Shown in pieces: positions 22,150-28,850 of a stretch of 64,000 bases of DNA; positions within the stretch are counted from its first letter, which is position 1; each line of letters begins with the position of its first letter. The translations under genes and the position numbers were made by a program. The stretch comes from Bacteroidota bacterium (GTDB taxonomy: Bacteria > Bacteroidota > Ignavibacteria > Tepidaquicellales > Tepidaquicellaceae), in the NCBI GenBank assembly GCA_018266845.1, contig JAFDZO010000011.1, forward strand, positions 124,001 to 188,000, read 5' to 3'. The notes under the pieces are model-generated. The model did no database searches. It worked only from the letters and a program-made list of their open reading frames with translations, and had not been told where the DNA came from.

Positions 22150-22581
22150 TTATGTTAGGTAAAAATTTTCCCGTTTCCTCATTTTCAGCTTTTCGGACTT
22201 AGTCTTGTCATCGTATCCGCATAAATGCAATACTCCGTGTATTATTACGCGTTTCAGTTCGCTATCATAAGTTGTTTTATAAGCCAGCGCATTCTCTCTA
22301 ACTTTTTCAACAGAGATTATTAACTCGCCGAACAATATATTAGTTTCATCATAATCGAAAAATGTAATTATATCAGTATCATAATCGTGCGATAAGAACT
22401 TATTGTTATATTCTCTTATCGTTTTGTTATCACAAAAAATTAAATTCAAAAAGGAAAGTGTTTGGTTTTCGTTTTGCAGAATTTTGATAATTATGCTTTT
22501 GGTTTCCTTTTTGAACTTGGCTTTATTTTCTTTTCCCTTTAAAAAATCTTTTAAAAAGAAATAATTTATTTTCAGTTTCAA
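22150..22581 (-). CDS. ybeY: Endoribonuclease YbeY
   Basis: Metal-dependent RNase involved in 16S rRNA 3'-end maturation and ribosome quality control. The 143-residue protein carries the H-G-V-L-H-L-C-G-Y-D-D motif: His115 and His119 are kept, but the third zinc ligand position (125) is Asp, not His. As far as I know this replacement occurs in other Bacteroidota. The start overlaps the upstream gene's stop by four bases. Confidence 0.93.
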   Translation of the reverse strand: MKLKINYFFLKDFLKGKENKAKFKKETKSIIIKILQNENQTLSFLNLIFCDNKTIREYNNKFLSHDYDTDIITFFDYDETNILFGELIISVEKVRENALAYKTTYDSELKRVIIHGVLHLCGYDDKTKSEKLKMRKRENFYLT

Positions 22582-22991
22582 CCGGCAGATTCAGTAATTG
22601 ATAAAGCTACAGCAGAAAGCAGCTTCTCCGAATTAAGCTCAGAGAAATCGGAGCTTAAAACCGATTTTTTCACGTTAGAATAAAGCGCGCAATCACCCTG
22701 TTTGGAAATTATCATTCCTGAAATAGTATCTTCTGTTTCTGAAGTGAAAATAAATTCTTCAAGCATATTGCTGACAATTATGTTTGCGCAATTTTGAAGC
22801 TGAAGGTGGCAATTGTTAGTGTAAACCGAAACAAGAAATTTCTCTTCCTGCTCCATCTGCACTTCAATGTGAATATCGGTTTTTGTTTTTGAATTTTTTA
22901 AATTAATCGAATAGATATTTTCGTTAACTGAAAATTTTTCGCCAAGAAGTTCTTCGATTAATTTGATGCTGTTAATGAATTGACTGCTCAA
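22578..22991 (-). CDS. Conserved-looking hypothetical protein upstream of ybeY
   Basis: A 137-residue soluble protein with alternating strands and helices, no signal peptide or membrane segment. Its alpha-beta layout (opening helix, several amphipathic strands, closing helix with S-E-K-L-L-S-A-V-A-L) faintly recalls YbjN or secretion-chaperone folds, but I do not recognise a family. ATGA overlap with ybeY indicates one operon with ybeY, smg and topA. Confidence 0.6.
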   Translation of the reverse strand: MSSQFINSIKLIEELLGEKFSVNENIYSINLKNSKTKTDIHIEVQMEQEEKFLVSVYTNNCHLQLQNCANIIVSNMLEEFIFTSETEDTISGMIISKQGDCALYSNVKKSVLSSDFSELNSEKLLSAVALSITESAG

Positions 22992-23446: not shown

Positions 23447-23971
23447 TTATTTTTTAATATTTGCGGCTGAAAGATATTCTTTGGCGTACTCGGAATAATT
23501 TTCAGCGCTTTTTTTGATGTCTTCTATCTCCTTTAAAGTCAAATCCCTCACAATCTTTCCCGGCACTCCTGCAACCAGTACTCCAGAAGGAACTTTAAAA
23601 TTTTCTTTGATAACTGTCCCAGCTGCAATCAATGAATTTGAATTCACCCTGCAATTATCAAGAAGAATTGCTCCCATTCCTATAAGAACATTATCCTCTA
23701 TCACGCAGCCATGAAGAATACAATTATGCCCGGCAGTAACATATGAGCCTATGTGCAGAAAATAATCAATGTGATTTACGTGAAGAATAGAGCCATCCTG
23801 AATATTCGTAAATTCCCCTATTCTGATATAGTTTACATCTCCCCTGACAACACAATTGTACCAAACGCTTGAATTTTTTCCTATCACTACATCGCCGATG
23901 ATGTGAGAGCCGGCACATACTAATACGCTTTCATCAATATTTGGCAGTACTCCTTTATAAGAGTGTATCAT
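23447..23971 (-). CDS. Gamma-carbonic-anhydrase-like hexapeptide-repeat protein
   Basis: 174 residues of left-handed beta-helix repeats ([LIV]-G-x-x-x pattern) with a C-terminal helix. The motifs V-V-R-G-D-V-N-Y-I-R-I-G, N-I-Q-D-G-S-I-L-H-V and T-A-G-H-N-C-I-L-H-G-C match the gamma-CA/YrdA/PaaY group and keep three candidate metal-binding histidines. It probably forms a trimer; carbonic anhydrase activity is not certain for this group. It follows the E2-like gene by 11 bp, so they appear to be in one transcript. Confidence 0.9.
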   Translation of the reverse strand: MIHSYKGVLPNIDESVLVCAGSHIIGDVVIGKNSSVWYNCVVRGDVNYIRIGEFTNIQDGSILHVNHIDYFLHIGSYVTAGHNCILHGCVIEDNVLIGMGAILLDNCRVNSNSLIAAGTVIKENFKVPSGVLVAGVPGKIVRDLTLKEIEDIKKSAENYSEYAKEYLSAANIKK

Positions 23972-23982
23972 TCTACTTTCTA

Positions 23983-24516
23983 CTATTTTAAATCTATTTC
24001 GATTTCTTTAATCTCAATTTTCAAATCTCCTTTCCGGATATTTGTATTATCAACCGGAAACCTGTGAATATTATTCTTTGCCCATAATGCAGCAGGTCCA
24101 TTTAGAGGACTGTCAACATTATAGTTTTGGTACATTATCATCTCGCCAATTTGATAAATTATATCTACGAGGGTTTCACCTGACGCCCAATAATCACCGA
24201 TACAAATGTCGTGCGGTGATGCCGTTCTGAAATTTGGATGAAAAATTGGTGTTAGAATATTCGCAATCGGTTTCAATCTTGGATAATCTATGTGCAGGTA
24301 TATTTCTGCTTTATGCTCACGTGAAATTAATATAATTCTGTTATCTTTTGTTGACTGCGGGTCAAGTTTTAATCCTTTTATGTTAAAGTGTACGATATAT
24401 TTTTCGGGAATAGAATCGCCGTTTGCAACGTACTCAACTTTTATATAAGGATGATTAGAAAATTCTTCTTTTATTTTTTCAAAATCCGAGTGTAACCTTC
24501 TTTGTCGTGGACTCAT
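23983..24516 (-). CDS. Ubiquitin-conjugating enzyme (E2)-like protein
   Basis: A 177-residue protein from the ATG at 24514-24516. It opens with an E2-type first helix, R-Q-R-R-L-H-S-D-F-E-K-I. It then has P-I-F-H-P-N-F (HPN at 93-95), D-I-C-I-G-D-Y-W with the candidate catalytic Cys105, and a C-terminal helix segment with S-P-L-N-G-P-A-A-L-W-A. This is the UBC-fold order HPN-Cys-Trp-PLN-AA, with two extra residues between HPN and Cys compared with eukaryotic enzymes. A TTG at 24543 would add nine residues and overlap the upstream gene; the ATG fits the E2 N-terminus better. It follows a JAMM-domain gene by 7 bp. Fold assignment is by motif; activity is not shown. Confidence 0.78.
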   Translation of the reverse strand: MSPRQRRLHSDFEKIKEEFSNHPYIKVEYVANGDSIPEKYIVHFNIKGLKLDPQSTKDNRIILISREHKAEIYLHIDYPRLKPIANILTPIFHPNFRTASPHDICIGDYWASGETLVDIIYQIGEMIMYQNYNVDSPLNGPAALWAKNNIHRFPVDNTNIRKGDLKIEIKEIEIDLK

Positions 24517-24523
24517 AATCTTT

Positions 24524-25519
24524 TTAATTAAGCGGAAGTTCAATCACCTGCCCGGGTTTTATGTCAAATTCGTTTTTCAATTTATTCAGCTTTACAATTA
24601 AATCAACTTTGCTTTCATCTTTCAAAATTCCTTTCACAATCGTTCTAAGATTTTCACCATCTCTAATTGTGTATTTTATTGTTTCAGATGCAGCAGACTT
24701 TAATTCCTGCACTGACTGTTCAAGGTTTACCACTTTTTGATTCAATTTTTCATTTTCCATTTTTACCTCAACCAATTGTTCTCTAACATTTTGCAGCCTT
24801 GAAAGTTCCTTATCCGTTGAACTTACTTTAAAGAAGAGCAATATGCTGAACAGAATATTTACAGCAAGCAGCGCTATTATAAAAAAATTTTTCATATTAT
24901 TTTCTGATTTCTTAGCTCCGTTCATATCAATTGGTTTGGGCATTTCGATTGCTAATGAGGTTGGATTTATTAAATCCTGCTTTTCTCCAAACACAAAATA
25001 CCCTTCACATTTTTTAATTCCGTTTTCATCCTTGTAAAAAAAACCCCTGTCGTTAATTACAGGGTCATAAACAAATGCCGTCATAAAAGGCAGATTAAAA
25101 AAATTATCCTGAATAAAAACATCATAGGTCGAAAGAAAAACCGAGTGCCCGGGGTGAGAATGATACCATCCTAAAATTCTTTTATTGGGAAAATTTTTTT
25201 CAAGATTGAAATTTATTTTCTCCCATGTCTCGTGAGTAAATGTTAGGCGCGAGAGCGAGGCATTAGTGTTTTCAGCTATAATACTTCCACTAATAACAAT
25301 AAAAAGATTTTCATCCGTATCTTTATATACAGACCCTGTCAGAACTCCTCCCAGCTCATTTTGTATATCACTTCTTAAATATTCTTCGATACCAAATAAA
25401 ACATTTTTATCTATAAAGATTTTAAGCCCTTCAGAAACGCTGCCGATTAATTCAGCTCCCGAGGGATAATCCGCCTTAGTAATTTCGGTTTTGCCGGTAT
25501 TTGAGTTTAAATCAACCAT
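24524..25519 (-). CDS. JAMM/MPN+ isopeptidase-like protein with membrane helix and LysM domain
   Basis: 331 residues. Residues about 30-175 form a JAB1/MPN domain with a complete JAMM zinc site: Glu55, then H-S-H-P-x6-S-x2-D with His120, His122, Ser130 and Asp133. A single transmembrane helix (211-231) follows, then a coiled coil (about 236-275) and a C-terminal LysM domain (281-329, starting I-K-Y-T-I-R-D-G-E-N-L). The likely topology is protease inside and LysM in the periplasm. LysM domains usually bind peptidoglycan. It is the first gene of the unit with the E2-like and gamma-CA-like genes, 57 bp after the cobalamin operon. Eukaryotic-type JAMM proteins remove ubiquitin-like tags; bacterial ones also trim ubiquitin-like proteins. 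Confidence 0.88.
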   Translation of the reverse strand: MVDLNSNTGKTEITKADYPSGAELIGSVSEGLKIFIDKNVLFGIEEYLRSDIQNELGGVLTGSVYKDTDENLFIVISGSIIAENTNASLSRLTFTHETWEKINFNLEKNFPNKRILGWYHSHPGHSVFLSTYDVFIQDNFFNLPFMTAFVYDPVINDRGFFYKDENGIKKCEGYFVFGEKQDLINPTSLAIEMPKPIDMNGAKKSENNMKNFFIIALLAVNILFSILLFFKVSSTDKELSRLQNVREQLVEVKMENEKLNQKVVNLEQSVQELKSAASETIKYTIRDGENLRTIVKGILKDESKVDLIVKLNKLKNEFDIKPGQVIELPLN

Positions 25520-25576: not shown

Positions 25577-26629
25577 TTAATTTCGAATTAATATTTTCTT
25601 CGGAGAAATTCCCGTTTGAAAACCCGCTTCCAATACCCCTGATGAGTTAAACTTATACAAAAAGCCCGCGCTGTTAAAATCTTTAGCATCTGCTAAGTAA
25701 TGTTTTTTATATTTTGAATCATACGAATATCCATTGATAAAGAGTAGATTATTGGATGAAGATGATTCAATAACGGTAGTAAGTTCGCCGGAAGTTAAGT
25801 CCAGCTTCATAATCGAAGAATAGTTTTTAATAAAAAAAATATTGTTCGAGTTAACATCAACATTAATATCACCGATAACCAGCGAATTTACAGAGTAAGA
25901 ATTTACAATTTCGTAAGAGTTAGGGCTCACTTTGTATATTGTACCCCCATGTCCCGAACTGCCTGCCAACAAATAACCATCCTTTGAAACGGCAAGAGAA
26001 GAAGGAGCTATATCTATCTTTATTTTTGCTACCTGTAAATCGTTAAGAGAGTTAATAACTGATATTGTTGAATCTACACCTCCGCCTGTATATTTTGTAT
26101 TGGCTACATATACTTTATTGTTAAGTGAAATTATTTCACGAGGGTTCAATCCTGTTTTGATTCTCTTTATTTCAGCAAGGCTATTCAAATCTATTACACT
26201 GACTGAAGAATCCGGTCCGTTAGAGCAATATGCTTTATCATTCACAGCGGCTATTGAGTAAGGGTTCAATCCAAAATTGTTTGAAGAATAGATTATTCCG
26301 TTTGTATCCAGCTTATAAATTTTTCCTTCTCCGCCGGGACTGCCCTGCTCTGTTATGTAAATAGCTGTAGCGTTGTATTCCGTAATTCCGTCAGGATATA
26401 AACCCAGCACTGACGGAAATGTAATGTTATAGCTGAATTCTCCATTTGCATAACTTAGGAACGAAAGCTTGCTTTGATCCGGCGCACCGTTTCCTTCCGA
26501 GAGAACGTACACGCCCAATTTGTGAGGTGAATTTGAGGAAACTAAGGGAACAATTATTTCATCGCGGTAACATCCTTGAATAACTATGAGGGCAAAAAAT
26601 AGAGGTAAAGCTATTTGCAATAATTTCAT
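25577..26629 (-). CDS. BtuG-like surface lipoprotein beta-propeller
   Basis: 350 residues with a lipoprotein signal ending V-I-Q-G-C. The rest is a YncE/YVTN-like beta-propeller with repeats such as I-S-V-I-N-S and P-S-S-L-A-V-S-K-D-G. It is a clear paralogue of 27546-28850: both share V-L-S-E-G-N-G, G-L-Y-P-D-G-I and G-K-I-Y-K-(L/M)-D. Its place in a cobalamin operon suggests a role like BtuG of Bacteroides, an outer-surface propeller that captures cobalamin for BtuB; substrate is inferred. No T9SS tail is present, so it is anchored by lipid instead. Confidence 0.8.
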   Translation of the reverse strand: MKLLQIALPLFFALIVIQGCYRDEIIVPLVSSNSPHKLGVYVLSEGNGAPDQSKLSFLSYANGEFSYNITFPSVLGLYPDGITEYNATAIYITEQGSPGGEGKIYKLDTNGIIYSSNNFGLNPYSIAAVNDKAYCSNGPDSSVSVIDLNSLAEIKRIKTGLNPREIISLNNKVYVANTKYTGGGVDSTISVINSLNDLQVAKIKIDIAPSSLAVSKDGYLLAGSSGHGGTIYKVSPNSYEIVNSYSVNSLVIGDINVDVNSNNIFFIKNYSSIMKLDLTSGELTTVIESSSSNNLLFINGYSYDSKYKKHYLADAKDFNSAGFLYKFNSSGVLEAGFQTGISPKKILIRN

Positions 26630-27545: not shown

Positions 27546-28850
27546 TTACTTCACTAAGGTCATCTTTTTTGCTGATGAAAAGGAAGGAGTATTTAGCTTA
27601 TAAAAATATACACCTGATGACAGCTCCGAACCATTATAGCTCACTTCGTAAGTTCCTTTTGCTTTTGCCTCATCTAAGATTGTATTTATTTCTCTTCCAT
27701 TTGAATCATAAATTTTTAGTGAAACCTGTTCATTCTTGGGAATTGAAAAAATTATTTTTGTAAAAGGATTAAAGGGATTAGGATAATTTTGCTTTAGCGA
27801 GTAACCGGAAGCAATTTCGGAAACCTGATTTATATTTACAGTTGAGGTTCTGTCAAATATTACTCTTCTCGGCGCAATTCCTGTAGTAAAACTTTGTTCT
27901 AAGTTTCCCGTTCCGCCGTAAATAAACAAACTGCCTGACACTGTAAAATTCTTAGCATCACATATAAAGTGTTTATTGTTGGAGTAGTCATAATTGTATC
28001 CATAGAAGTAAATAAAAGAAGTCGCCGGATTATTAATAAACGTGTTTGCGCTTCCGGTTGATAAATTTAAACGGGATATATTATTTGAATAATCTATATA
28101 GTAAACGTTATCTGAATTTTTATCCACTGAAATATCTTTATCAAAGCCTTGGTTTAAAACATAGGTATCCAGAGTCTGAAAAGTATTGGGATCAATCTTA
28201 TATATCTTTCCATAATATCCATTACACCCTACAAGAAGTTTGCCGTCGTTAGAAATTGCAAGCGATGTAGGTTCAGTACTAAAATAAATTCTCCCGATAA
28301 CAGAATCGGTTTGTGAATTTATTATTGAAACGCTTGAATCTCTCGCTCCGCCAAATGCAGAAGTGTTACAGACAAAAACTCTATTTTGATACCCGAGTAT
28401 TTCCTGAGGGTATGAGCCGACGGTTAACTCTTTTATCACAGAAAAATTACTCATATTTAAAATGGTAACTTTACTTGCAGGACCGTTTGTAACGTAAATT
28501 TTGTTATTGGATGCAGTAAGAGAATAAGGATTCGCGCCGAATGACTGCGAATTTTGTATAGCTCCTGCACTATCCATTTTATAAATTTTACCTTGTCCAC
28601 CAAATCCTCCCTGCTCTAATACAAACAAGCTGGAATTAAACTTGAGTATCCCGTCAGGGTATAATCCTAAACTTCCGTTGCTTGTAATACTCAAAGAAAA
28701 TGCGCCTCCATTATACGTGTAAGCTGAAAGCTTTCCCGAGCCGGGAGAGCCATTTCCTTCGCTTAAAATATAAGCTTTTGTATTTTGAGTAAAGGATAGA
28801 TTTGAATTTGCAAGAAAAATAAAGACAAGAAACAGAGTAATTTTTTTCAT
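27546..28850 (-). CDS. BtuG-like beta-propeller with T9SS sorting domain
   Basis: 434 residues: signal peptide (cleavage near residue 22), a YncE-like propeller (about 28-345) and a C-terminal type A T9SS domain beginning L-K-Q-N-Y-P-N-P-F-N-P and ending M-T-L-V-K. It is the paralogue of the lipoprotein at 25577-26629 but is exported and anchored by T9SS. The gene starts 5 bp after btuB, so it likely cooperates with the receptor in cobalamin capture (inferred by analogy with BtuG). Confidence 0.82.
   Translation of the reverse strand: MKKITLFLVFIFLANSNLSFTQNTKAYILSEGNGSPGSGKLSAYTYNGGAFSLSITSNGSLGLYPDGILKFNSSLFVLEQGGFGGQGKIYKMDSAGAIQNSQSFGANPYSLTASNNKIYVTNGPASKVTILNMSNFSVIKELTVGSYPQEILGYQNRVFVCNTSAFGGARDSSVSIINSQTDSVIGRIYFSTEPTSLAISNDGKLLVGCNGYYGKIYKIDPNTFQTLDTYVLNQGFDKDISVDKNSDNVYYIDYSNNISRLNLSTGSANTFINNPATSFIYFYGYNYDYSNNKHFICDAKNFTVSGSLFIYGGTGNLEQSFTTGIAPRRVIFDRTSTVNINQVSEIASGYSLKQNYPNPFNPFTKIIFSIPKNEQVSLKIYDSNGREINTILDEAKAKGTYEVSYNGSELSSGVYFYKLNTPSFSSAKKMTLVK

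Follow-up and report, generated by a model that had tools for sequence, protein, structure and literature searches.

Which partners would a JAMM metalloprotease fused to a LysM domain, and the ubiquitin-conjugating enzyme-like protein (E2) encoded next to it, work with, if no activating enzyme (E1) and no ubiquitin-like modifier (Ubl) are encoded around them? This question is raised by a pair of genes in a 64,000-nucleotide stretch of DNA, which was analysed as a whole and is referred to here as the window. We consider it very probable that the pair belongs to a bacterial ubiquitin-like system of five parts, to which it contributes E2 and deconjugase, and that the Ubl, E1 and RING-type E3 of this system are encoded on another contig. 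This reading, drawn from sequence comparison and structural models, is based on conserved catalytic residues, on the shared presence and absence of the two loci, and on an E1-Ubl-E2-JAMM operon found elsewhere.

The JAMM and E2 genes and their neighbours

The genes, domains and motifs of the window locus are as follows.

24524..25519, minus strand: predicted JAMM/MPN+ metalloprotease with transmembrane (TM) helix, coiled coil and LysM domain, 331 aa (PF01398, 4.7e-11)
25040..25429, minus strand: JAMM domain, residues 31-160, predicted cytoplasmic (Pfam span 31-140, extended to 160 by PDB matches)
24830..24886, minus strand: single TM helix, residues 212-230 (hydropathy)
24533..24673, minus strand: LysM domain, residues 283-329, predicted periplasmic (17.4 bits in the window's copy)
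23983..24516, minus strand: E2 (UBC-fold) enzyme with predicted catalytic Cys105, 177 aa (PF00179, Foldseek, VIA)
24232..24240, minus strand: HPN motif of the E2, residues 93-95 (invariant in the alignment)
24202..24204, minus strand: codon of the predicted catalytic cysteine C105 of the E2 (invariant in the alignment)
23447..23971, minus strand: gamma-carbonic-anhydrase-like hexapeptide protein (NF050158, 1.3e-49, under its cut-off)

The product of 24524-25519 is predicted to be a membrane-anchored deconjugase or precursor protease. It carries the E...HxHP...SxxD motif of JAMM/MPN+ isopeptidases, and the zinc-motif residues E55, H120, S121, H122, P123, S130 and D133 are invariant in all 18 aligned relatives, in agreement with the complete JAMM motif that an earlier note had read from this sequence. 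Its top match among solved structures is the N11/Rpn11-like 6fjv (2.6e-7). The same note had described a fusion running from JAMM through a membrane helix and a coiled coil to LysM, and this architecture holds: the LysM domain scores 17.4 bits in the window's protein, under the Pfam cut-off of 20.9, and it is matched at E<=0.01 in 16 of the 18 relatives (best 2e-11) and missing from 2. One JAMM protein without LysM, in genome G011 (L034), keeps the JAMM motif. The charges flanking the helix show a weak bias toward an N-in/C-out orientation, from which we infer this topology for the protein.

The E2 reading frame extends from an ATG at 24516 to a stop at 23983, with 7 bp separating the JAMM stop from the E2 start. 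The protein matches PF00179 at 3.6e-5, just short of the curated cut-off, and E2s in the PDB at 2.8e-4, the ubiquitin-conjugating similarity spanning its second half. H93-P94-N95 and C105 are invariant in 20 of 20 sequences, and in the same 20 W110 and PLNG (137-140) show little or no variation. The AlphaFold model (pLDDT 80, pTM 0.78) finds eukaryotic E2s in Foldseek (E 4.5e-6, probability 1.00) and aligns with UBE2N in VIA over 130 residues (Z 12.6, rmsd 2.8 A); as modelled, the product of 23983-24516 has a UBC fold, and a role as E2 is predicted for it. The JAMM and E2 genes adjoin on one strand in all 20 genomes that have the E2, their ends overlapping in some. The earlier note had recognised an E2 in this gene by its HPN, Cys and PLN motifs, and had named a non-UBC fold, homologues without the cysteine and a lack of conserved adjacency as results that would speak against it; the modelled fold, the retained C105 and the conserved pairing all uphold the identification.

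In much of the family the JAMM-E2 pair occupies a similar site, among topA, ybeY, the gamma-carbonic anhydrase gene and cobO. The gamma-carbonic anhydrase gene adjoins the pair in 20/20 genomes and had been proposed to complete the unit, but genome G015 has it at the same site, beside the next gene, with JAMM-E2 absent. We therefore treat it as a neighbour only, probably a bystander rather than a third component.

Two further features of this neighbourhood were observed. An uncharacterised conserved gene of the family adjoins ybeY (22578-22991, minus strand; 137 aa, no significant Pfam match), and its protein is found in 10 of 10 genomes tested, at 52-59% identity, whether or not the genome has the ubiquitin-like system. 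Two related beta-propeller-like proteins (25577-26629 and 27546-28850) flank cobO and a BFD-type [2Fe-2S] gene, adjoining a TonB-receptor-like gene.

A second locus with modifier, E1 and RING genes

A ThiF search of the window's own genome (G000) returned an E1-like gene of about 410 aa on another contig (G000:C8:45761-46474), where a Ubl, the E1 and a RING protein are encoded by three successive genes on one strand (L059/L095, contig C8). Searches with ThiF and Ubl queries gave no E1 or Ubl match within the window. The earlier statement that there is no E1 or ubiquitin-like gene is thus correct for the window and incorrect for the genome; a genome search for an E1 and a Ubl ending in Gly had been suggested as a check, and both are present on C8, the Ubl ending in ITAG.

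The Ubl has 89 aa, ends in ...HPEITAG, and matches YukD (PF08817, 1.9e-16) and ubiquitin (PF00240, 2.5e-4); judged by these matches, it has a Ub/YukD-like beta-grasp domain. Its terminus is Ala-Gly, not Gly-Gly. EITAG is present in 18/18 Ubl sequences, of which 9 terminate there and 9 extend with tails of 1-23 residues that are mutually unrelated (S, MSS, SL, NAF, RF, SIHR and others), the same pattern as in the precursors of ubiquitin, SUMO and NEDD8. The Ubl of the window organism needs no trimming, and the JAMM enzyme there would therefore mainly deconjugate. Mean pairwise identity among ten representatives is 87% for the Ubl, 61% for the E1, 60% for the E2, 40% for the RING protein and 39% for the JAMM protein, the Ubl being the most conserved component of the five. 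Among the recurring families read by eye in the surroundings of the E1 genes, there was no EssC/FtsK-like ATPase or WXG100 gene such as would accompany a YukD of WXG100/type VII secretion. A Fic-domain gene and a small Imm63-like partner (L059 2664-3247, minus strand) immediately precede the Ubl gene; they are absent from the other E1 loci in the comparison and look like an inserted toxin-antitoxin pair.

The E1 contains a ThiF-type adenylation domain (PF00899, 7e-54). A profile of 16 E1s matches UBA1 at 3.6e-35 and UBA3 at 1.6e-31, compared with 1.8e-19 for ThiF and 2e-18 for MoeB, which places the E1 nearer UBA1/UBA3. The top Foldseek hits of its model are UBA3 chains (3.4e-18). The whole-E1 model aligns with SAE2 in VIA over 282 residues (Z 23.5, 3.9 A, model residues 39-405), and the alignment ends at model residue 405 and chain residue 535, where SAE2 carries its ubiquitin-fold domain (UFD); on this model, the E1 likely has a C-terminal UFD as well. 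A cysteine in the motif KR[KR]SC, following a CxxC, is found in 20/20 E1s, and by motif order we take it to correspond to the catalytic cysteine of UBA3. In genome G011 (L102) the E1 lacks the CxxC and CxxH, presumed zinc ligands, and keeps the KRxSC cysteine. The other ThiF matches in the window's genome are weaker and shorter, which leaves the C8 E1 as the one clear candidate to charge the window's E2. The class of E1s scoring about 180 bits occurs in nearly the same genomes as E2-JAMM.

The RING protein (286 aa) combines a Prok-RING_1 domain (PF14446, 1.4e-15), whose match includes the zinc ligands of prokaryotic RINGs, with a zinc ribbon, a TM segment and a C-terminal NTF2-like domain (Cds6_C, 3.8e-8). 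Its flanking charges clearly favour N-in/C-out, K+R mostly numbering 4-9 ahead of the helix and 1-3 behind it. An E1-RING pair is present at 20/20 E1 loci fetched, with a Ubl nearby at 18; at the two others, where the E1 is close to the start of its contig, the Ubl was located on a different contig (G010:C22, G024:C390). An apparent loss of the RING N-terminus in four genomes (G002, G014, G017, G024) was dismissed as an artefact of the start-codon rule, since tblastn recovers the RING in all of them. Four RING genes (L107, L109, L114, L097) have no ATG, GTG or TTG ahead of the RING codons; translation may begin there at a less common codon.

Of the eight family genomes that lack the system, five, of genus g7, retain a RING-TM-NTF2-like homologue (about 35% identical) without Ubl, E1 or E2, and at the two loci read gene by gene it lies beside a UbiA-family prenyltransferase gene resembling the one at the E1 loci of the family, with no Ubl or E1 nearby (L175 2033-2857, L176 2464-3435). 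The RING protein may therefore have another role: either the E3 outlived the cascade in that role, or it was there first and the cascade was added to it. A second Prok-RING_1 protein, of 488 aa with RING, helical region, TM helix and outer part, is encoded in the window's genome (G000:C46, L181 2193-3659, plus strand), and most genomes of the family, some of those that lack the ubiquitin-like cascade among them, have similar RING reading frames of about 490-510 aa.

Distribution and relation to known systems

Relatives of the JAMM and E2 proteins occur in one taxonomic family, the titled ones in the genome collection being Ignavibacteria or labelled Bacteroidetes, and the Ubl and E2 profiles found no match outside this family (f1) in a phylum sample of 395 genomes. 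Both loci are present, allowing for contig breaks, in 21 of the 29 family genomes, and neither in 8; the complete set occurs in 14 of the 16 genera of the family, at conserved chromosomal sites. Counted by gene, the Ubl is found in 21 genomes and the E2 in 20, the sole mismatch being G022, in which the JAMM gene runs into the contig end where the E2 would follow. In G006 the E1 is truncated by a contig end. The lone JAMM of the former and the missing E1 of the latter were considered as real losses and rejected, contig ends explaining both. The same 8 genomes, including the single-contig genome G434, lack both Ubl and E2. Fisher's exact test for the co-occurrence gives p 2.3e-7 with genomes treated as independent, though they are related; in a tree built from neighbouring genes, the 8 lacking genomes group in a single part of the family that also includes G016, a genome with the system, so that only about 2-3 independent events lie behind the co-occurrence. 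In the four-contig genome G014 the two loci are on separate contigs (C2 and C3). The earlier idea of a conjugation system with remote partners is borne out by the Ubl-E1-RING locus, which follows the same presence/absence pattern as JAMM-E2.

Stronger evidence than co-occurrence that the two loci form one system comes from operons in which related genes are joined. On the plasmid pCRI9333.03 of the cyanobacterium Crinalium epipsammum (L192), E1-Ubl-Ubl(...EGGY)-E2-JAMM-TM stand in a row. The E1 is 42% identical over 255 aa, the JAMM-TM protein 30% and the E2 26%, and the two YukD-like Crinalium Ubls have weak Pfam matches to YukD (0.06 and 0.19). Unlike the two-locus system, it is a single plasmid operon with no RING gene seen and no LysM, and the C-terminal part of its E1 has a CxxC...CxxC stretch not seen in the E1 of the window organism. 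A prophage-like contig carries a further E1-Ubl(...VAG)-E2-JAMM operon (L193 2878-5453). The latter stands beside a BsuBI/PstI-type restriction enzyme and a methylase, and is possibly a defence version of the same kit. Viral contigs gave no match to the Ubl profile, the E2 profile or the Crinalium E1; phages gave only weak ThiF/MoeB-type matches to the E1; and among plasmids there was no Ubl match, E2 and JAMM matching Crinalium only.

RING-containing prokaryotic systems, with E1, E2, JAB, RING and YukD-like Ubl together, were reportedly predicted by Burroughs, Iyer and Aravind in 2011. By this definition the set is present in the window's genome; the present system differs in its two distant loci, its JAMM-TM-LysM and RING-TM-NTF2-like proteins and its being core to one Ignavibacteria family. 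To our knowledge, a two-locus arrangement with LysM and NTF2-like fusions has not been described, and a literature search on ubiquitin systems in Ignavibacteria found nothing. Also already predicted are bacterial Ubl-E1-E2-JAB sets, as operon types 6a-6d (Iyer 2006, PMC1779556), and BilABCD is a defence set of Ubl, E1, E2 and JAB (PMC11354881). Each of these is encoded in one operon, in which E1-E2 fusions or tandem Ubls are frequent and no RING is listed (PMC1779556, PMC11354881), and type 6d E2s are without the classical His (PMC1779556), whereas our two loci lie on different contigs and not in the one operon of Bil, Bub or CBASS systems.

According to the excerpted text of PMC5654768, bacterial E2 and E3 homologues are sporadic, with some operons complete, and Caldiarchaeum subterraneum has a minimal, eukaryote-like cascade of E1, E2, small RING protein and Rpn11, the Rpn11/JAMM enzyme of which trims a nine-residue pro-peptide and also deconjugates. 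The present system resembles it in being a minimal cascade and in the N11-like 6fjv as best solved match of the window's JAMM protein. The Caldiarchaeum cascade differs in being archaeal, in an operon with adjacent JAMM and with a di-Gly ubiquitin-type modifier, and no membrane-anchored parts are reported in that excerpt (PMC5654768). What appears to be new here is the combination of two conserved chromosomal loci, the JAMM-TM-LysM and RING-TM-NTF2-like proteins, a near-invariant modifier and core inheritance in one family.

Alternatively, the genes might form an anti-phage system of the Bil/Bub type that, upon infection, couples the Ubl to proteins of the phage or of the cell. Such defence operons do combine Ubl, E1, E2 and JAB (BilABCD, PMC11354881), and of the related operons described above one is on a prophage-like contig beside a restriction enzyme and another on a plasmid. 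However, JAMM-E2 stands at a similar chromosomal site in much of the family, the Ubl-E1-RING genes adjoin a UbiA-family prenyltransferase gene at 16/20 loci, the Ubl is near-invariant and not fast-evolving, viral contigs are without matches to the Ubl and E2 profiles, and PADLOC gives no E2 match and only generic JAB matches, and we regard this explanation as unlikely.

It is highly improbable that the Ubl is a sulfur carrier of the ThiS/MoaD/CysO type and the JAMM protein a carrier-processing protease of the Mec/desampylase type. YukD, ThiS and ubiquitin share a common fold, and JAMM and ThiF proteins are also known to work in sulfur transfer, but such transfer has no use for a RING protein or for a dedicated E2 with an invariant cysteine, the E1 is nearer to UBA1/UBA3, and the identifiable families recurring around the E1 loci are a prenyltransferase and ABC-transport genes rather than genes for sulfur or cofactors. 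Equally hard to credit is that JAMM-E2 and Ubl-E1-RING are two unrelated conserved loci, with JAMM acting alone as an envelope protease: the loci are on different contigs and few independent losses limit the co-occurrence test, yet relatives of E1, Ubl, E2 and JAMM-TM form one operon in Crinalium, and the window's E2 has its only clear charging candidate on C8.

Proposed mechanism and biological role

In the five-part conjugation system that we prefer, the Ubl would be synthesised either with -ITAG as its terminus or with a few further residues, which the JAMM enzyme would trim. The E1 would adenylate the Gly of the Ubl and then take the Ubl onto its conserved cysteine C209, and the UFD-like C-terminal region of the E1 would pass it to Cys105 of the E2. 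The RING-TM-NTF2-like protein would deliver the E2~Ubl to target proteins on the inner surface of the inner membrane, and the JAMM-TM-LysM protein would take the tag off. With an N-in/C-out topology, both enzymatic parts would be cytoplasmic and both accessory domains periplasmic; from outside, the LysM and NTF2-like parts may sense or anchor, holding the enzymes in place or gating them in response to the condition of the wall or periplasm. The earlier suggestion that the pair acts at the cell envelope is consistent with the predicted JAMM and RING topology, envelope action itself being a prediction.

All experimentally studied bacterial ubiquitin-like conjugation systems known to us are defence operons. 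Tentatively, and as a possibility that we rate somewhat below even, the present system might serve everyday regulation and not defence: it would be chromosomal and vertically inherited, with a TM RING ligase and a TM JAMM deconjugase that read the periplasm (NTF2-like) and peptidoglycan (LysM) and set the tagging of inner-membrane proteins, with a modifier near-constant in the family, as ubiquitin is in eukaryotes. The membrane-anchored E3 and deconjugase with outward-facing domains make a link between envelope and tagging directly testable, and for the question of where RING/E2/DUB cascades came from the system offers an example in bacteria. The complete set, with its near-invariant modifier, in 14 of 16 genera and at conserved sites suggests that ubiquitin-like tagging has a core physiological role in bacteria, and, given the predicted periplasmic parts of the system's membrane proteins, there may be a connection between this tagging and the cell envelope.
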